Source of the DNA: Planctomycetota bacterium
Lineage (GTDB): Bacteria > Planctomycetota > Phycisphaerae > Phycisphaerales > UBA5793
Assembly (NCBI GenBank): GCA_963205185.1
Contig: CAUJHZ010000006.1
Coordinates: 62,001-126,000 of the forward strand
Direction of reading: 5' to 3'
Length of the DNA stretch: 64,000 bases
The position numbers and the translations under genes were made by a program. The stretch's first letter is position 1. Every line of letters starts with the position of its first letter. The notes under the pieces are model-generated. The model did not search any database. It had not been told where the DNA came from and saw nothing but the letters and a program-made list of their open reading frames with translations. Shown one piece after another: positions 29,949-42,823 of this stretch.

Positions 29949-29969
29949 ACCGATAAGATGAACAGAAAG

Positions 29970-29991
29970 CCCAGGGAAGGCTTTCCCTGGG
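29970..29991 (+). repeat. hairpin in the iscS-iscU spacer
   Basis: CCCAGGGAA at 29970-29978 and TTCCCTGGG at 29983-29991 form a perfect 9-bp stem with loop GGCT. There is no T run, so it is not a terminator. It may set a processing or stability boundary between the iscS and iscU parts of the message, by analogy with other isc operons. Confidence 0.55.
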
Positions 29992-30008
29992 TGTTGAAAG
30001 GCACTCAC

Positions 30009-30473
30009 ATGGCATACAGCGACAAAGTCATCCGGCACTACGAGCAGCCGAGCAACGTGGGCTCGTTCGGCACCACCTCTGAAGTCAAGAAGAAGAAGGA
30101 CATCGGCGTGGGCATCGTCGGCGCGCCCGAGTGCGGCGACGTCATGCAGCTGCAGATCAAGGTCAACGAGAAGGGCGTCATCGAAGACGCCAAGTTCAAG
30201 ACCTTCGGCTGCGGCTCGGCCATCGCCTGCTCCAGCCTCGCCACCGAGTGGCTCAAGGGCAAGACCCTTGACGAGGGCGTCGCGATCAAGAACACCGAAC
30301 TGGTGCAGGAACTCAGCCTGCCCCCGGTCAAGATCCACTGCTCGGTGCTGGCCGAAGACGCGATCCGCGCCGCCGTGAGCGACTACAAGAAGAAGAACGG
30401 CCTCGAAGCCGGCGACGACGACCACCAGCACGCCAAGGTCGAGGCGATTCCCTGCAAGACGAACGCGAACTGA
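30009..30473 (+). CDS. iscU: Fe-S cluster scaffold IscU
   Basis: The 154-residue product builds [2Fe-2S] clusters from sulfur of IscS. All three ligand cysteines are visible: GAPECGD, FGCGSAIACSS and KIHCSVLAEDA. The segment LPPVKIHCS is typical (LPPVK is the chaperone-binding motif). The ATG at 30009 follows AAAGGC; an open extension to 29958 runs through the hairpin and is not used. The His/Asp-rich tail of about 25 residues is longer than usual. Confidence 0.94.
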   Translation: MAYSDKVIRHYEQPSNVGSFGTTSEVKKKKDIGVGIVGAPECGDVMQLQIKVNEKGVIEDAKFKTFGCGSAIACSSLATEWLKGKTLDEGVAIKNTELVQELSLPPVKIHCSVLAEDAIRAAVSDYKKKNGLEAGDDDHQHAKVEAIPCKTNAN

Positions 30474-30554
30474 CCGAAGCACGTATAATGGATGACAACG
30501 CCGCGGCTCCGAGCGACGGACCGCTCCAACGAGGCACTCTCAAGGGTCAATGAC

Positions 30555-30887
30555 ATGGGCATTCAACTCAGCGAAACCGCCGCACGCGAAATCAAGACCA
30601 TCATCCAGCAGCAGGAACTCGACGCCGAAAAGATCCGCCTGCGCGTGGGCGTCAAGGGCGGCGGCTGCTCGGGCTTCTCCTACGTCCTCGATCTCACCGA
30701 GAACGAGCGCGACACGGATGAGATCACCGAACAGCACGGCGTGCGCATCGTCTGCGACCCCAAGAGCCTGATCTACCTCGACAACACGACGATCGATTTC
30801 AAGGATGAGATCATGGGTCGCGGCTTCGTCTTCAACAACCCCAACGCGACCAGCAGCTGCGGCTGCGGCAGTTCGTTCAGCGCGTAA
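30555..30887 (+). CDS. iscA: A-type Fe-S carrier protein (IscA/ErpA/SufA family)
   Basis: The 110-residue product has the A-type signature: VGVKGGGCSGFSYVLDL with the first cysteine, then NPNATSSCGCGSSFSA with the C-terminal pair. These proteins carry Fe-S clusters to apoproteins. Which of IscA, ErpA or SufA fits best cannot be told. The ATG at 30555 is chosen; an open start at 30492 lacks family similarity. It closes the operon, ahead of a strong terminator. Confidence 0.92.
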   Translation: MGIQLSETAAREIKTIIQQQELDAEKIRLRVGVKGGGCSGFSYVLDLTENERDTDEITEQHGVRIVCDPKSLIYLDNTTIDFKDEIMGRGFVFNNPNATSSCGCGSSFSA

Positions 30888-37191: not shown

Positions 37192-37917
37192 TCATCGCGC
37201 CGAAACCGCTTGCGCGCCCGCCGCTCGCATTTCCTCGGCGCGCTGCAGATATCGCTCGACTCCAAACGCGACGATGGCCAGTGCGATGACCTGATAGGCG
37301 CTGAAGGGCGTCTGGCCGATTCGCGCCGTGTCGCGTGCGAACTCCTCGACGAAGCGGAATACGCCGTAGGCGATCAGATAGATGTGGAACTGGTTGCCGC
37401 GCGCCCAGCCGATCCGCCGCGCCGCCAGGGCCCACGCGAGGAACGTCGCGTTGAACCCGATCTCCAGCGGCACGACCGGCCATCGCGATGCGCCCGCGCT
37501 GTCGTTGAGTGACCACCAGTGCTCCGCGCACAACGCGCCTTGGCAGCAGCCTTCAATCCAGCATCCGATGCGGCCGAGCATCAGCCCGGCGGGCACGATC
37601 AGCGCGAAGGCGTCGCCGGTCGCCCGGCTAAACCCGGTGCGCCGCTTGGCGAACTCCACCGCGGCGTAGCCGCCGAGCAGGCCGCCGGTGATGCTCCTGC
37701 CCGTGAGCAGCGCGAGCCAGTTGTCGCGGTAGTGCCATCCTTCGGCGAGCAGGAAGGCGAGCTTGGTTCCGATGATCGCGCCGATCAGCGCGGAGATGTA
37801 GATGACGGTGAGCCGCGGATCGCGCCGGCGCTGCTGCCCGGTGATGCGGCCCCACAGCCACGCCCCGAGCACGATGCCGGTGATCATGAGCACGCTGTAC
37901 GCGCTGCCAAGGTTCAT
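37192..37917 (-). CDS. Lgt-like prolipoprotein diacylglyceryl transferase family protein
   Basis: A 241-residue, seven-helix protein of the Lgt family, which moves diacylglyceryl from phosphatidylglycerol to lipoprotein cysteine. Matching segments are SITGGLLGGYAAVEFAKRR, GLMLGRIGCWIEGCCQG and, near the end, YGVFRFVEEFARD. The GRxGCxxEGCCxG segment, with three cysteines, replaces the usual GRxGNFxNGE. The His of the usual YHGG motif is not seen. Its start overlaps the stop of the radical SAM gene by four bases. It may be a specialised Lgt relative rather than the housekeeping enzyme. Confidence 0.8.
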   Translation of the reverse strand: MNLGSAYSVLMITGIVLGAWLWGRITGQQRRRDPRLTVIYISALIGAIIGTKLAFLLAEGWHYRDNWLALLTGRSITGGLLGGYAAVEFAKRRTGFSRATGDAFALIVPAGLMLGRIGCWIEGCCQGALCAEHWWSLNDSAGASRWPVVPLEIGFNATFLAWALAARRIGWARGNQFHIYLIAYGVFRFVEEFARDTARIGQTPFSAYQVIALAIVAFGVERYLQRAEEMRAAGAQAVSAR

Positions 37918-39293
37918 CGCTCCGCGCTCGCGGCGGTCGCCGCTTCCGCCGCCCGGCCGCCGCTGAGGTAGTATCGGCAGAACGAATCGAGCCGCCCGTC
38001 GCGCCGGATCACGTGCGTGCAGCAGCGGTCGATCCGGTCCTGGTCGAACGTCCACGCATCCATGAAGGGCTTGATGAAGATGCGAAACGGTTGGTCGGGG
38101 CCGATCTCGAGTTGCTTGAGGACGGCGCCGAGCGGCTCGCTTTCGCAGCCGCACTGCGCGAGATCTTCGAGGCGATAGTCGAGCCGATTTGAAAGAAATC
38201 CCTGCAGCGACTCAAGGTCGATCAATCGGCTCAGTCCGATTGGACCCGCCGTGGTGCGGATCAAGTAACTCATGGTGTGGCAGTTCGGATCGCCGCAGGG
38301 CAGGGGGGTGAAGTCCTCGAAAGCCAACTGGCCGGCGCTCTGGCCGACGAGATCGGCAATGACGTCGCCCACGGAGATCGGCTCGTGGGCCTCACGCGCC
38401 ATCGGCAGCGAAGTCTCGACGGCCGGTACGCGGCCGGAGGCGAACATCGGCTGAAGGGTGATGCCCCGGCAGTGCGGCCGTTCAAGCCCGAATCGCAGCG
38501 CCTCGCCGAGATGCGTTCGCGTCTGCTCGGTGACGACCATGGCCAGCGTCGTCGGCACGCCGGCGCTGCCTGCCAGGTCGATCGCCTGCCCGCGCAGGGC
38601 TCGCAAATCGGCGCCGCGCAACTCGACCTGCCCGGCCTGCTGGACTCCGTCGAACTGCAGGTACAACTCGAACTTGCGGTGCAGCCGGCGCAGTTGGCCG
38701 AGTCGCTCACGAAAGGCGGCATCGCGCGCGATGCGCACGCCGTTGGTGTTGATGAGGATGTAGCCGATGTCGCTGCGCTGCAGAGCCCACTCGAGCAGCC
38801 GGAAGAACTCGGGATGGATGGTCGGCTCGCCGCCCGAGAGTTGCAGGATGTCGATGTAGCCCTTGCGCGTCAGCACCTGCTCGACGCACTGCACGAACTC
38901 ATCGAAAGTGATGCAGTCGATGCGGTCGTCAACGCCCGGGGGCGAGGCCGCGAAACACGTGGGGCAGGTGAGATTGCACGTGTCGACAATCTCGATGAGC
39001 GCCACGCACGTTGAAAGCACGTCGAAAGGGTCCATTGCGGTGTGCGAGCCAGGTTGATCTGCCGGACCGCATCCGCACCCCGCGCCGCACGCGCCGCGTG
39101 AGTCGTAGTAGAAGCGGGCATCGCGCGCCAGAAGCGTCTCAAAGCCGCCGTGTGTCTCGCAGCGCTTACTCATGAAGACCGATCCATCGCGCTCAACGAC
39201 CTGGGCGTCGATCTCCGCCAGGCACACTGGGCAGCGGCTCCGTGTGGTCTTGATCGGCCGCGGATCGTTCAGAATGGAGAGCGAAACGCTCAT
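37914..39293 (-). CDS. radical SAM enzyme, tetraether lipid synthase (Tes)-like
   Basis: The 459-residue product has the radical SAM motif CNLTCPTC near residue 105, followed by ILQLSGGEPTIHPEF. An N-terminal cysteine set (RCPVCLAEI, RCETHGGF, GACGAGCGCG) precedes it. The C-terminal part has CGDPNCHTMSYL and FMDAWTFDQDRIDRCCTH...FCRYY, which recalls the extra-cluster region of archaeal Tes/GDGT-MAS proteins. Those join lipid chains by C-C bonds. The ATG at 39293 overlaps the zinc-ribbon gene by four bases. Its real substrate is not known. Confidence 0.82.
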   Translation of the reverse strand: MSVSLSILNDPRPIKTTRSRCPVCLAEIDAQVVERDGSVFMSKRCETHGGFETLLARDARFYYDSRGACGAGCGCGPADQPGSHTAMDPFDVLSTCVALIEIVDTCNLTCPTCFAASPPGVDDRIDCITFDEFVQCVEQVLTRKGYIDILQLSGGEPTIHPEFFRLLEWALQRSDIGYILINTNGVRIARDAAFRERLGQLRRLHRKFELYLQFDGVQQAGQVELRGADLRALRGQAIDLAGSAGVPTTLAMVVTEQTRTHLGEALRFGLERPHCRGITLQPMFASGRVPAVETSLPMAREAHEPISVGDVIADLVGQSAGQLAFEDFTPLPCGDPNCHTMSYLIRTTAGPIGLSRLIDLESLQGFLSNRLDYRLEDLAQCGCESEPLGAVLKQLEIGPDQPFRIFIKPFMDAWTFDQDRIDRCCTHVIRRDGRLDSFCRYYLSGGRAAEAATAASAER

Positions 39294-39772
39294 GCGACGG
39301 TCATCACTACCCAGAGACAACCGCCGAACACCAGAAATGGCCACAGGATTGAAAGCACGCCGAGTGTGACCATCAGGCGGCGGTTCTGCTCGGCGCGCGG
39401 GCCAAGGTTGATGTCCCGTCGATTGAGCAGCCGGTACTGAACCGGGACGTTGAAGATGCACGCCAGGAACGAGGCGGCAAGGAGAATCAGAGACACCGGC
39501 AGGATGAAGCTGCCGTCGCCCATGCCCGTCATCGGCACCACCGTGAAGAGCAGGTAGAGCGCCATCGGCCAGCCGAAGCGCAGGAGCAGATTCGCCGTCA
39601 TCGGCGCCGGCTCTTTCGCCACCGAAAGCGGGTCGTATTCCTCGCCGCACTCCGGGCACGCGCCCTCTTGGGGCAGTCCGGAGAGTTGATAGCCGCATTT
39701 GATGCAGTACGCTCGTTCGCCAAGCGTCGCCGGTTTCACGCCAGGATCGACAGGCAGAGGTTCTTCAGTCAC
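39290..39772 (-). CDS. membrane protein with N-terminal zinc ribbon
   Basis: The roughly 160-residue product starts at a GTG (39772). Its zinc ribbon near residues 20-45 reads YCIKCGYQLSGLPQEGACPECG. Three to four membrane helices follow (LLLRFGWPMALYLLFTVVPM, LPVSLILLAASFLACIF, MVTLGVLSILWPFLVFGG). It has no recognised function. The same ribbon ends the protein at 53598-54371. It heads the overlapping trio with the Tes-like and Lgt-like genes. The start is uncertain. Confidence 0.7.
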   Translation of the reverse strand: MTEEPLPVDPGVKPATLGERAYCIKCGYQLSGLPQEGACPECGEEYDPLSVAKEPAPMTANLLLRFGWPMALYLLFTVVPMTGMGDGSFILPVSLILLAASFLACIFNVPVQYRLLNRRDINLGPRAEQNRRLMVTLGVLSILWPFLVFGGCLWVVMTVA

Positions 39773-40581: not shown

Positions 40582-41505
40582 CTACTGGGCCCGCACAACG
40601 TTGCTCGTCGTGCACGTCGCGACGTCGAGCAACTGGAAGTAGCCTCCGCACACGCCCGGGCCGACGTTGGCATTGAGCGTGCGGCCTCCGCTGTTACTCG
40701 AATTGCCCTGGAAGGCGATCTGAATCTGGTTCGATCCAAGGCCCAGTTGCGTTCCCGCGCACGGGTAGCCGGTGGGTATGACGAAGCCGCCCGTGTTGCG
40801 GGCGTAGACCAGCGCCGCGGTTCGATTGGGCGTCGCGCCGGTCCACGAGATCACAATGGCGCCGCCTCCGGGGCACGTGGCGTCCACTGTCAGGATCGGT
40901 CCACCACCTTCAGTGACTTCGAGATAGAACAGCTCGCTGTGATACCAGCCATCGCGCTGCACATCGCGCCCGACGAGCGCAAACTGGAGCAGGTAGTACC
41001 CGGGCGGTGTGGCGGCGTCAACGTGAATGTCGTAGGTCGCGTCGGTCGGGTCATTCGTGCCCCAGTCGTAGCCGTCGTACTCGCCGTCGGCGCGGATGAA
41101 GTAGGTCGGCCAGTTGGCGCCGCGAAAGACGATCCACGACGGGTCGTCGTCGTAGACGAGCGTGCCGCCCTGCGTCACTTCCTCGTCGTCGAAGCCGATG
41201 ATCTGAAAGGCGTAGTTCTCCGTGCCGTCGATGGCGCGCATGCTCAAGCCCACGCTGCCGCCTGCCGGCGCGGAGTAGAACTTGAGTTCGCCCTGGTCGG
41301 GCACGCCCTGCCGCTCCACGGGATCGACGAGCCCGGTGTAGTCGAGCAGTTCCATGCGATCGTTGACGATCGTGGAATGGCAGAAGTAGCAGTTGCCATC
41401 CACGCCGGTGCCGAACGCCGGGTAGGCGATGGCGCGACCGGTCGCCGTCGTGATAACCGCAACGCAGAGTGCGGCCAGTCCAATACGGAGTTGGGCAAGG
41501 CTCAT
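40582..41505 (-). CDS. secreted CxxCH protein with four-cysteine C-terminal domain (copy 1)
   Basis: The 307-residue product has a signal peptide (RIGLAALCVAVITTATGRAIA) and then NCYFCHST, a single CxxCH heme-attachment motif. The middle part (ELKFYSAPAGGSVGLSMRAI, YDWGTNDPTDATYDIHVDAA) has a reelin-like or immunoglobulin-like beta pattern. The C-terminal 105 residues carry the domain TCPGGG...WTGATP...CAGTQLGL...CGGYFQLLDVATCTTSN. It closely matches the next gene, so the two are tandem duplicates. GGAG lies upstream of the ATG at 41505. Function unknown; electron transfer or surface binding is possible. Confidence 0.82.
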   Translation of the reverse strand: MSLAQLRIGLAALCVAVITTATGRAIAYPAFGTGVDGNCYFCHSTIVNDRMELLDYTGLVDPVERQGVPDQGELKFYSAPAGGSVGLSMRAIDGTENYAFQIIGFDDEEVTQGGTLVYDDDPSWIVFRGANWPTYFIRADGEYDGYDWGTNDPTDATYDIHVDAATPPGYYLLQFALVGRDVQRDGWYHSELFYLEVTEGGGPILTVDATCPGGGAIVISWTGATPNRTAALVYARNTGGFVIPTGYPCAGTQLGLGSNQIQIAFQGNSSNSGGRTLNANVGPGVCGGYFQLLDVATCTTSNVVRAQ

Positions 41506-41699
41506 GTCTTTCTCCTCTCCGGAATCACCCGCTGGTGGAGCGGCCACCCTCATGGCTAGCCCCTCCGTCCACCGGCAGTCTAGGGTACACCAGAAACGTT
41601 GCGCAGGCGGAGAAATCTCGCACAAAACAGCGAAGTAGCGACAGTTGCGCTTGGTCTGCTGCGAGTGGCCGGACGCGGTGCCGTGCCCCGAGTGAAACG

Positions 41700-41725
41700 C
41701 CGCGACGCCTTTTGGGGCGTCGCGG
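41700..41725 (-). terminator. rho-independent terminator between the tandem CxxCH genes
   Basis: CCGCGACGCC (41700-41709) and GGCGTCGCGG (41716-41725) make a perfect 10-bp stem with a 6-base loop; CGTTTC follows on the reverse strand. The T run is short. Confidence 0.65.
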
Positions 41726-41797
41726 TGATCCATCGCAGGATGTGAGCCAGGCACCCGAAGGCCCGCTTTTCCGATCGGGCGCTTCGAACCCAGCAGA

Positions 41798-42712
41798 TTA
41801 TTGCGCCTGCACTACGTTGCTGGTTGCGCAGGTCCCGCCATCCACGAGTTGGAAGTAGCCGCCGCAGACTCCGGGCCCGGCATTCGCGTTGAGAGTGCGG
41901 CTGCCGTTGTTGCCCGCCGGACCCTGGAAGGCCAGTTGCAGCTGGTTCGGCCCGAGGCCGAGCCGGGTGCCGGGGCAAGGGCTGCCGCTGGGGATCACGA
42001 AGTTGCCGGTGGTGCGAGCGTAGACGAGGCCGATCTGGCCGCCGGGCGTCGCTCCCGACCACGAGATGACGATCGGTCCGCCCGACGGGCAGGTGGCGTC
42101 CACCGTCAGCGTCGGACCGGTGCTTCCCGTGACCTCGAGGTAGAAGAGTTCGTCCTGGTACCACTCGCCGCTCTGCTTGCCGGCGAGAGCGAAGCGCATG
42201 AGGTAGTACCCGGGTGCTGCCGATTGATCGACCTGAATGTTGTAGGTGACACTGGTCGGGTCGCCGGTGCCCCAGTCGTATCCATTGCGCCCTCCGTCAG
42301 CGCGGCAGAAATAGGTCTTGAAACTGCCGCGGTAGGCGAGCCAGGTCGGATCATCGGTGTATGCGAGCGTTCCGCCGTGCGTGACGTCGGTGGCGTCGAA
42401 GCCGGTGATCTGGAACGCGTACTGGTTGGCGCCGTTGATGGCGCGGATTGTCATGCCGACGTTTCCGCCGGGCGCGACGGAGTAGAACTTGAGCGAGCCC
42501 TGATCGGGCACGCCCTGCATCTCGACGGGATCGACCATGCCGTTGAAGTTGAGCAGTTCCATGCGCCCGGTCTGGATGCTCGTGTGACAGGAGAAGCAGT
42601 CGCCGTTGGTACCGACGGCGAGATCCGGGAATGCCAGCGCCGGCGCGGCCGCCGCCGAAACAAGCATGACGCACATGATATAGAGGCAATAGAAGTACCT
42701 TTGAAACGCCAT
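41798..42712 (-). CDS. secreted CxxCH protein with four-cysteine C-terminal domain (copy 2)
   Basis: The 304-residue paralogue of the preceding product. Its signal peptide is followed by DCFSCHTS (CxxCH), then ELLNFNGMVDPVEMQGVPDQ, almost the same as ELLDYTGLVDPVERQGVPDQ in copy 1. The C-terminal domain is TCPSGGP...WSGATP...CPGTRLGL...CGGYFQLVDGGTCATSN. AAGGAG six bases before the ATG at 42712 sets the start. A promoter lies 83 bases upstream. Confidence 0.82.
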   Translation of the reverse strand: MAFQRYFYCLYIMCVMLVSAAAAPALAFPDLAVGTNGDCFSCHTSIQTGRMELLNFNGMVDPVEMQGVPDQGSLKFYSVAPGGNVGMTIRAINGANQYAFQITGFDATDVTHGGTLAYTDDPTWLAYRGSFKTYFCRADGGRNGYDWGTGDPTSVTYNIQVDQSAAPGYYLMRFALAGKQSGEWYQDELFYLEVTGSTGPTLTVDATCPSGGPIVISWSGATPGGQIGLVYARTTGNFVIPSGSPCPGTRLGLGPNQLQLAFQGPAGNNGSRTLNANAGPGVCGGYFQLVDGGTCATSNVVQAQ

Positions 42713-42794
42713 TGTCCGCTCCTTGATGTGAAAGAAAGTATTTGCCGATCGCGCGGGTGCTTCGGGTATGCGCCGTCGCGTGGGGCTGAGGCAC

Positions 42795-42823
42795 AAAGTA
42801 ACACATCCTGCAATAGAGGTCAA
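42795..42823 (-). promoter_or_regulatory. sigma-70-type promoter of the CxxCH gene
   Basis: On the reverse strand TTGACC (42818-42823) and TACTTT (42795-42800) are 17 bases apart, near-consensus -35 and -10. It lies upstream of the ATG at 42712. Confidence 0.6.

Follow-up and report, generated by a model that had tools for sequence, protein, structure and literature searches.

The locus at positions 37192–39772 of the window, i.e. the whole analysed stretch of 64,000 nucleotides from a Planctomycetota bacterium (assembly GCA_963205185.1; 4.55 Mb), raises the question of what a radical S-adenosylmethionine (SAM) protein resembling the archaeal enzyme Tes might do beside a membrane protein resembling the diacylglyceryl transferase Lgt. 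Three open reading frames on the minus strand occupy this locus, the remaining one encoding a zinc-ribbon membrane protein. The conserved unit is the radical SAM/Lgt-like pair, without the zinc-ribbon gene. The conserved neighbouring of the two genes in planctomycetes, verrucomicrobia, actinobacteria and a bacteroidete points to an undescribed membrane-lipid remodelling, and judged from the sequences this functional unit may well be a two-enzyme module which modifies glycerolipids (probability about 0.55). The broader proposition that both proteins form some lipid-modifying pair appears at least as probable.

The pairing was surveyed in 392 Planctomycetota genomes, in which genes within 5 kb were regarded as neighbours and Lgt paralogues were counted above 75 bits. 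An Lgt paralogue was found beside 40 of the 79 radical SAM matches; it shared their strand in every case and lay downstream in 21 and upstream in 19. Pairing was complete above a radical SAM score of 600 bits (5/5), frequent between 250 and 600 bits (35/51) and absent below (0/23). Likewise, 39 of the 49 Lgt paralogues adjoined a radical SAM match on the same strand, in either order. Both genes were present in 39 genomes, only the radical SAM gene (at least 250 bits) in 13, only the Lgt paralogue in 6 and neither in 334. Among the close homologues with enough flanking sequence, the Lgt-like gene adjoins the radical SAM gene in all but two loci, L050 and L032. The contig that carries L032 was assigned to 'Candidatus Kuenenia stuttgartiensis' in binning; its copy falls inside the phycisphaeral clade beside L050, and the contig is possibly mis-binned.

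Beyond the planctomycetes, the pair was detected in a metagenome-assembled genome (MAG) of Verrucomicrobia (L042) and on two mycobacterial plasmids, one from Mycobacterium avium and one from M. branderi; the gene about 1 kb upstream there bears the annotation 'prolipoprotein diacylglyceryl transferase family protein'. The Lgt-like gene immediately precedes the radical SAM gene in Nonomuraea gerenzanensis and Persicobacter psychrovividus. The actinobacterial copies grouped with the clade of the window protein (support 99/97), and the pairing label changed four times on the tree vs. 20 times after shuffling (wider tree: 7 vs. 29). A third conserved partner was not found in the wider loci, and no viral copies were detected. 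Between the Lgt-like and the radical SAM gene, the mycobacterial plasmids encode two small membrane proteins which contain a CTGLNP motif (L125, 5175–5947; L130, 3189–5947).

The reading frames of the locus are not due to chance, because they match Pfam families (Radical_SAM, E = 3e-12; PF23545, 8e-18; LGT, 1e-24), because relatives repeat them at 88% and 79% identity and because the radical SAM/Lgt-like pair recurs far beyond these relatives. Direct inspection of the sequence verified the four-nucleotide ATGA overlaps at both joints, which the initial annotation had claimed for all three genes (Table 1). The gene order, which it had proposed to compare as that of a trio, is conserved for the pair; the zinc-ribbon gene accompanies most close relatives only and is absent from the wider loci. 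Since the zinc-ribbon protein has about 17 matches in this genome, its gene is at most accessory, and the protein was rejected as a core part.

Table 1. Coordinates of the genes, overlaps and sequence motifs of the locus (window positions).
Feature	Position	Strand	Evidence and remarks
Zinc-ribbon membrane protein	39290..39772	-	GTG start, 160 amino acids; peripheral; 1 of 17 matches in own genome
Tes-like radical SAM protein	37914..39293	-	ATG start, 459 amino acids; PF23545 and Radical_SAM; 7TOL by profile and predicted fold
Lgt-like (PF01790) integral membrane paralogue	37192..37917	-	ATG start, 241 amino acids; seven predicted transmembrane helices
ATGA overlap, zinc-ribbon/radical SAM	39290..39293	-	4 nucleotides; sequence
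ATGA overlap, radical SAM/Lgt-like	37914..37917	-	4 nucleotides; sequence; also in loci L002, L003/L026, L027, L030, L033 and L036
Rubredoxin-type metal site C21-x2-C24-x20-C45-x2-H48	39150..39233	-	Spacing identical to Tes C9-x2-C12-x20-C33-x2-H36
Radical SAM motif CxxxCxxC	38955..38978	-	C106, C110 and C113, invariant; sequence and alignment
C-terminal cluster region K408-P-FMDAW...RCCTHV...FCRYY	37968..38072	-	Lys408 at Tes Met439, Val428 at Tyr459
Arm-2 motif G-R-S-I-T-G-G of the Lgt-like protein	37681..37701	-	E. coli G-M-S-F-H103-G-G; His lost, basic residue gained
Lgt signature GRIGCWIEGCCQGALC	37528..37575	-	E. coli GRLGNFINGELWG; R143 kept; N146 to C119, E151 to C124
YGVFRFVEEFAR	37333..37368	-	Equivalents of Y235, R239, E243 and R246 kept

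Profile and predicted fold identify archaeal Tes/GDGT-MAS as a distant homologue of the radical SAM protein. A profile built from 24 homologues matched PDB entry 7TOL over nearly the full length (E = 1e-83). The AlphaFold model (mean predicted local distance difference test score, pLDDT, 77.5; loops 69–85, 285–301 and 368–388 poor) was matched by Foldseek to 7TOL with E = 3.4e-32 and template modelling scores of 0.74/0.69, and 7TOL and 7TOM were far ahead of every other structure. The sole full-length structural relative is thus the lipid-coupling GDGT-MAS/Tes, which counts in favour of a glycerolipid module; in the crystals of this enzyme, the active site contained two phospholipids (PMC9433317). 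The motifs CNLTCPTC and CCTH...FCRYY described initially were found at residues 106–113 and 424–442, and the alignment showed that the C-terminal cluster cysteines C338, C424 and C439 are retained. The matching Pfam family PF23545 is named 'HMPTM N-terminal zinc ribbon'. This name appears to stem from the first annotation of MJ0619, now Tes/GDGT-MAS, because UniProt lists that protein as HMPTM_METJA (PMC9433317).

Among the NCBIfam models, TrsS scored best with 218 bits (cut-off 490), followed by Tes with 156.5 bits (cut-off 450). Membership in Tes (NF045702) as well as in TrsS (NF045646) was rejected, since both curated cut-offs were missed. The likeness to Tes first noticed in the sequence therefore applies to the architecture, as seen in profile and fold, and does not extend to membership of the family, given the score and the replacement of Met439 and Tyr459. 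The protein grouped with none of the families of known unrelated function. Its closest named match came from Phycisphaerales bacterium UBA5793, in agreement with a probable phycisphaeral host. In L004 (1501–4371) and L037 (6195–9386) the radical SAM frame stays open upstream through about 500 more codons; profile matches in these extensions repeat the core region out of place and look like frame artefacts of high-GC DNA.

The Lgt-like protein was compared with an E. coli Lgt sequence that matches the 5AZB chain over both key aligned stretches. It passed the gathering score of PF01790 (87.6 vs. 24.9 bits) and missed the cut-off of the Lgt equivalog TIGR00544 (51.5 vs. 118.9 bits). Its model (pLDDT 88.6) shows seven long helices, and E. 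coli Lgt 5AZB was the sole significant fold match. A second, canonical Lgt with 201 bits and conserved SHGG and ANFINGE motifs is encoded elsewhere in the genome, and a house-keeping role of the Lgt-like protein was rejected for this reason.

The catalytic arginine pair R143/R239 (R116/R188 in the window protein) and Y235 are present in all 48 paired copies, and E243 in 44 of them. In E. coli Lgt these residues bind and activate the glycerol C3-O bond, with activation by the two arginines, or support that site (PMC4728403). H103 (Thr77 in the window), N146 (Cys119) and E151 (Cys124), on the other hand, are replaced in 48/48. E151 binds the head of phosphatidylglycerol, and for H103 a position facing the lipobox peptide has been proposed; the E. 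coli mutants H103A/N/Q/R/Y and E151A/Q are inactive (PMC4728403). Because E151 and H103 are lost, neither use of phosphatidylglycerol nor modification of lipoproteins should be assumed. The initial annotation was thus right in placing the protein in the Lgt superfamily, whereas the handling of phosphatidylglycerol which it had connected with this family does not follow. These copies suggest that some members of the Lgt superfamily no longer serve lipoprotein biogenesis. The exchanges N146C and E151C were rejected as a hallmark of pairing, as unpaired Lgt paralogues carry both too; paired and unpaired copies are better separated by a basic residue at the position of M100 (48/48 paired vs. 3/12 unpaired).

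The following mechanism is proposed for the pair. Most likely, the soluble Tes-like radical SAM enzyme would abstract hydrogen from an unactivated carbon of an acyl chain by means of a 5'-deoxyadenosyl radical. The putative substrate is a membrane glycerolipid, which would be offered from the cytoplasmic leaflet. The C-terminal Fe-S cluster may hold the carbon radical as in Tes until it is coupled with a second chain or group; a cross-linked or membrane-spanning glycerolipid is a plausible, though uncertain, product of such chain coupling. The Lgt-like enzyme with its seven transmembrane helices is expected to bind the glycerolipid in the bilayer through the catalytic arginine pair and to transfer or release its head or diacylglyceryl part. 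The acceptor would probably be other than a lipobox cysteine, because the lipid-entry arm and the head-binding site are changed. The order of these two steps is likewise provisional. Only tentatively can this be extended to a new pathway of planctomycetes, some mycobacteria and others. A Tes-like enzyme would cross-link or otherwise modify acyl chains in this pathway, a re-purposed Lgt would act on the lipid from the outer leaflet, and the outcome would be a new class of lipids, either membrane-spanning or diacylglyceryl-transferred and protein-free.

Other members of the radical SAM family have other neighbours. A methyltransferase gene lies beside the radical SAM gene on haloarchaeal plasmids (L126, L128, L131, L132), on a plasmid of M. 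vanbaalenii (L124) and in planctomycetes (L110, L112, L108), and these copies are often also accompanied by DUF547. Within one clade of Planctomycetota, this methyltransferase seems to have taken the place of the Lgt-like partner. A sister clade with several copies per locus (Planctomycetota and Riflebacteria) adjoins genes for a ketosynthase, FabG-like proteins, FabZ and proteins similar to acyl carrier protein, and because of this setting fatty-acyl chemistry is considered as the neighbourhood of the family. The respective loci (L096, L099, L102, L092 and L093 of Planctomycetota; L047 of Riflebacteria) contain up to three Tes-like copies per cluster and an extra radical SAM gene. They look like uncharacterised clusters for fatty-acyl biosynthesis, reminiscent of the proposed ladderane clusters.

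Several observations weigh against a glycerolipid module of the Tes type. Beside the score below the Tes cut-off, the histidine of the N-terminal auxiliary cluster (three Cys and one His in Tes) is replaced by an acidic residue in an otherwise cysteine-rich stretch, and the cysteines of this cluster vary, the motif being gone in L041 and in the actinobacterial copies. Met439 and Tyr459, which are fully conserved across 1000 archaeal Tes homologues (PMC9433317), correspond to Lys408 and Val428 in the alignment, and Lys408 is common to the window clade and the actinobacterial copies. This replacement does not exclude a Tes reaction, because the Tes variants M439A and Y459F/L remain active (PMC9433317). 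In one paired subclade (L088, L101, L104, L123 and relatives), C338 is exchanged for A/S, C424 for S/T and C439 for D/E; the radical-holding C-terminal cluster may be changed or absent there, and the chemistry may therefore differ across the family. Furthermore, the pairing of other family members with methyltransferases does not by itself suggest lipids, a Ger-like/PlsA ether-lipid gene (DUF2229, PF09989) was not found in this genome, and the genomic co-occurrence (Fisher p = 4e-36, 392 genomes) is uncorrected for shared ancestry.

In the strongest form of the glycerolipid reading, the radical SAM enzyme would join the acyl-chain ends of two phospholipids as a membrane-spanning lipid synthase of the Tes/Mss type, and the Lgt-like enzyme would trim or exchange the outward head in the outer leaflet. 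The Tes fold with its lipid-binding precedent, the Tes homologues of unconfirmed function in Black Sea Planctomycetota MAGs (PMC11868695) and the action of Lgt at the periplasmic leaflet (PMC4728403), where a bacterial membrane-spanning lipid must show one head, are consistent with this. Chain coupling, however, has so far been shown for no bacterial Tes homologue, and the changed cluster sites and the two replaced residues also speak against it; this form is plausible but less probable than the module as such. The missing Ger homologue is less of an obstacle, as ester-linked spanning lipids would not require Ger. Scarcely less probable is a non-lipid chemistry of the TrsS type, with the radical SAM enzyme modifying a small molecule and the Lgt-like protein serving as its membrane anchor, carrier or transporter. 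TrsS indeed outscores Tes for the window protein, and the partner of its relatives in haloarchaea, Mycolicibacterium and some Planctomycetota is an enzyme of DVU_1556 type or one like arsenite methyltransferase. Nevertheless, the TrsS cut-off was missed by far, the sister clade is embedded among fatty-acyl genes, and the invariant catalytic arginine pair would be unexpected for a mere anchor.

The pair might also produce an unusual diacylglyceryl anchor of lipoproteins, attached by the Lgt paralogue and altered by the radical SAM enzyme. Membership in the Lgt superfamily fits this assumption, as does the cluster of M. branderi, upstream of which two DUF3558 proteins with N-termini resembling lipoprotein signals (LLAAC, LGGC) are encoded. 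It is nonetheless unlikely, since H103 is missing in every paired copy and all tested H103 mutants of E. coli are inactive (PMC4728403), another locus of the genome encodes a canonical Lgt, and a recurrent lipoprotein gene beside the pair was not found in Planctomycetota. That the genes are mere neighbours, packed as in any operon without a joint function, was already disfavoured and is very improbable: four-nucleotide overlaps are common in compact operons and the zinc-ribbon gene is not specific, but the pairing is retained in four phyla and after an inversion of the gene order, and its label changes on both trees are far fewer than after shuffling. A glycerolipid-modifying module remains the preferred explanation.

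The locus is flanked by a convergent citrate synthase gene and, upstream, by a gene for an AhpC/TSA peroxiredoxin. A scan for promoters and terminators gave nothing useful above chance. At 40582–42823 of the window, two tandem paralogues of secreted type with a CxxCH motif (CYFCHS and CFSCHT) and without a Pfam match are encoded. Genes for Fe-S assembly (NifU_N/IscU-like and an IscA-like reading frame) are located at 29958–30887, about 7 kb from the radical SAM gene.

Tes homologues of bacteria, including Planctomycetota, were reported without a confirmed function (PMC8941075, PMC11868695, PMC9433317); in the Black Sea they occur in 110 of 684 Planctomycetota MAGs (PMC11868695). What these many homologues do bears on lipid biochemistry and on the source of the branched tetraethers used as palaeoclimate proxy (PMC8941075, PMC11868695). 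The fixed Lgt-like partner offers a concrete starting point for the substrate side and the leaflet, and direct testing is possible because the pair occurs in cultured bacteria.

No literature was found that describes a pairing of radical SAM or tetraether enzymes with Lgt or diacylglyceryl transferases, in a search outside of which most subscription papers and preprints lie. The proteins of the locus are variants of known families, and their pairing is without earlier description in the searchable literature. With Tes/GDGT-MAS (MJ0619, 7TOL/7TOM, NF045702) the window protein shares the domain order, the rubredoxin-type iron site with identical spacing, the radical SAM motif, the C-terminal cluster cysteines and the FMDA...C...FC tail. 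It differs by an identity of only about 24%, the lacking N-cluster histidine, the exchanges at Met439 and Tyr459, a shorter stretch between the last cluster cysteines and the Lgt paralogue encoded alongside. The bacterial membrane-spanning lipid synthase Mss is reported to have the catalytic architecture of Tes (PMC13274423). TrsS, a radical SAM (seleno)protein, shares the zinc ribbon and the radical SAM core and is the best NCBIfam model; the partner in the window is Lgt-like, in contrast to the DVU_1556-type methyltransferase beside several TrsS-like relatives, and the score lies below 490 bits. From Lgt (PF01790, 5AZB) the partner has kept the fold of seven transmembrane helices and the equivalents of R143, R239, Y235, Y26, E243 and R246, whereas Thr has replaced H103, Cys has replaced N146 and E151, the head domain is shorter and a basic residue stands at the position of M100. 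Paralogues of Lgt of the GRxGCFxNGCC type without a radical SAM neighbour share the exchanges N146C and E151C, but position 103 is Tyr in 8 of 12 cases and the basic arm residue is missing from 9 of the 12.

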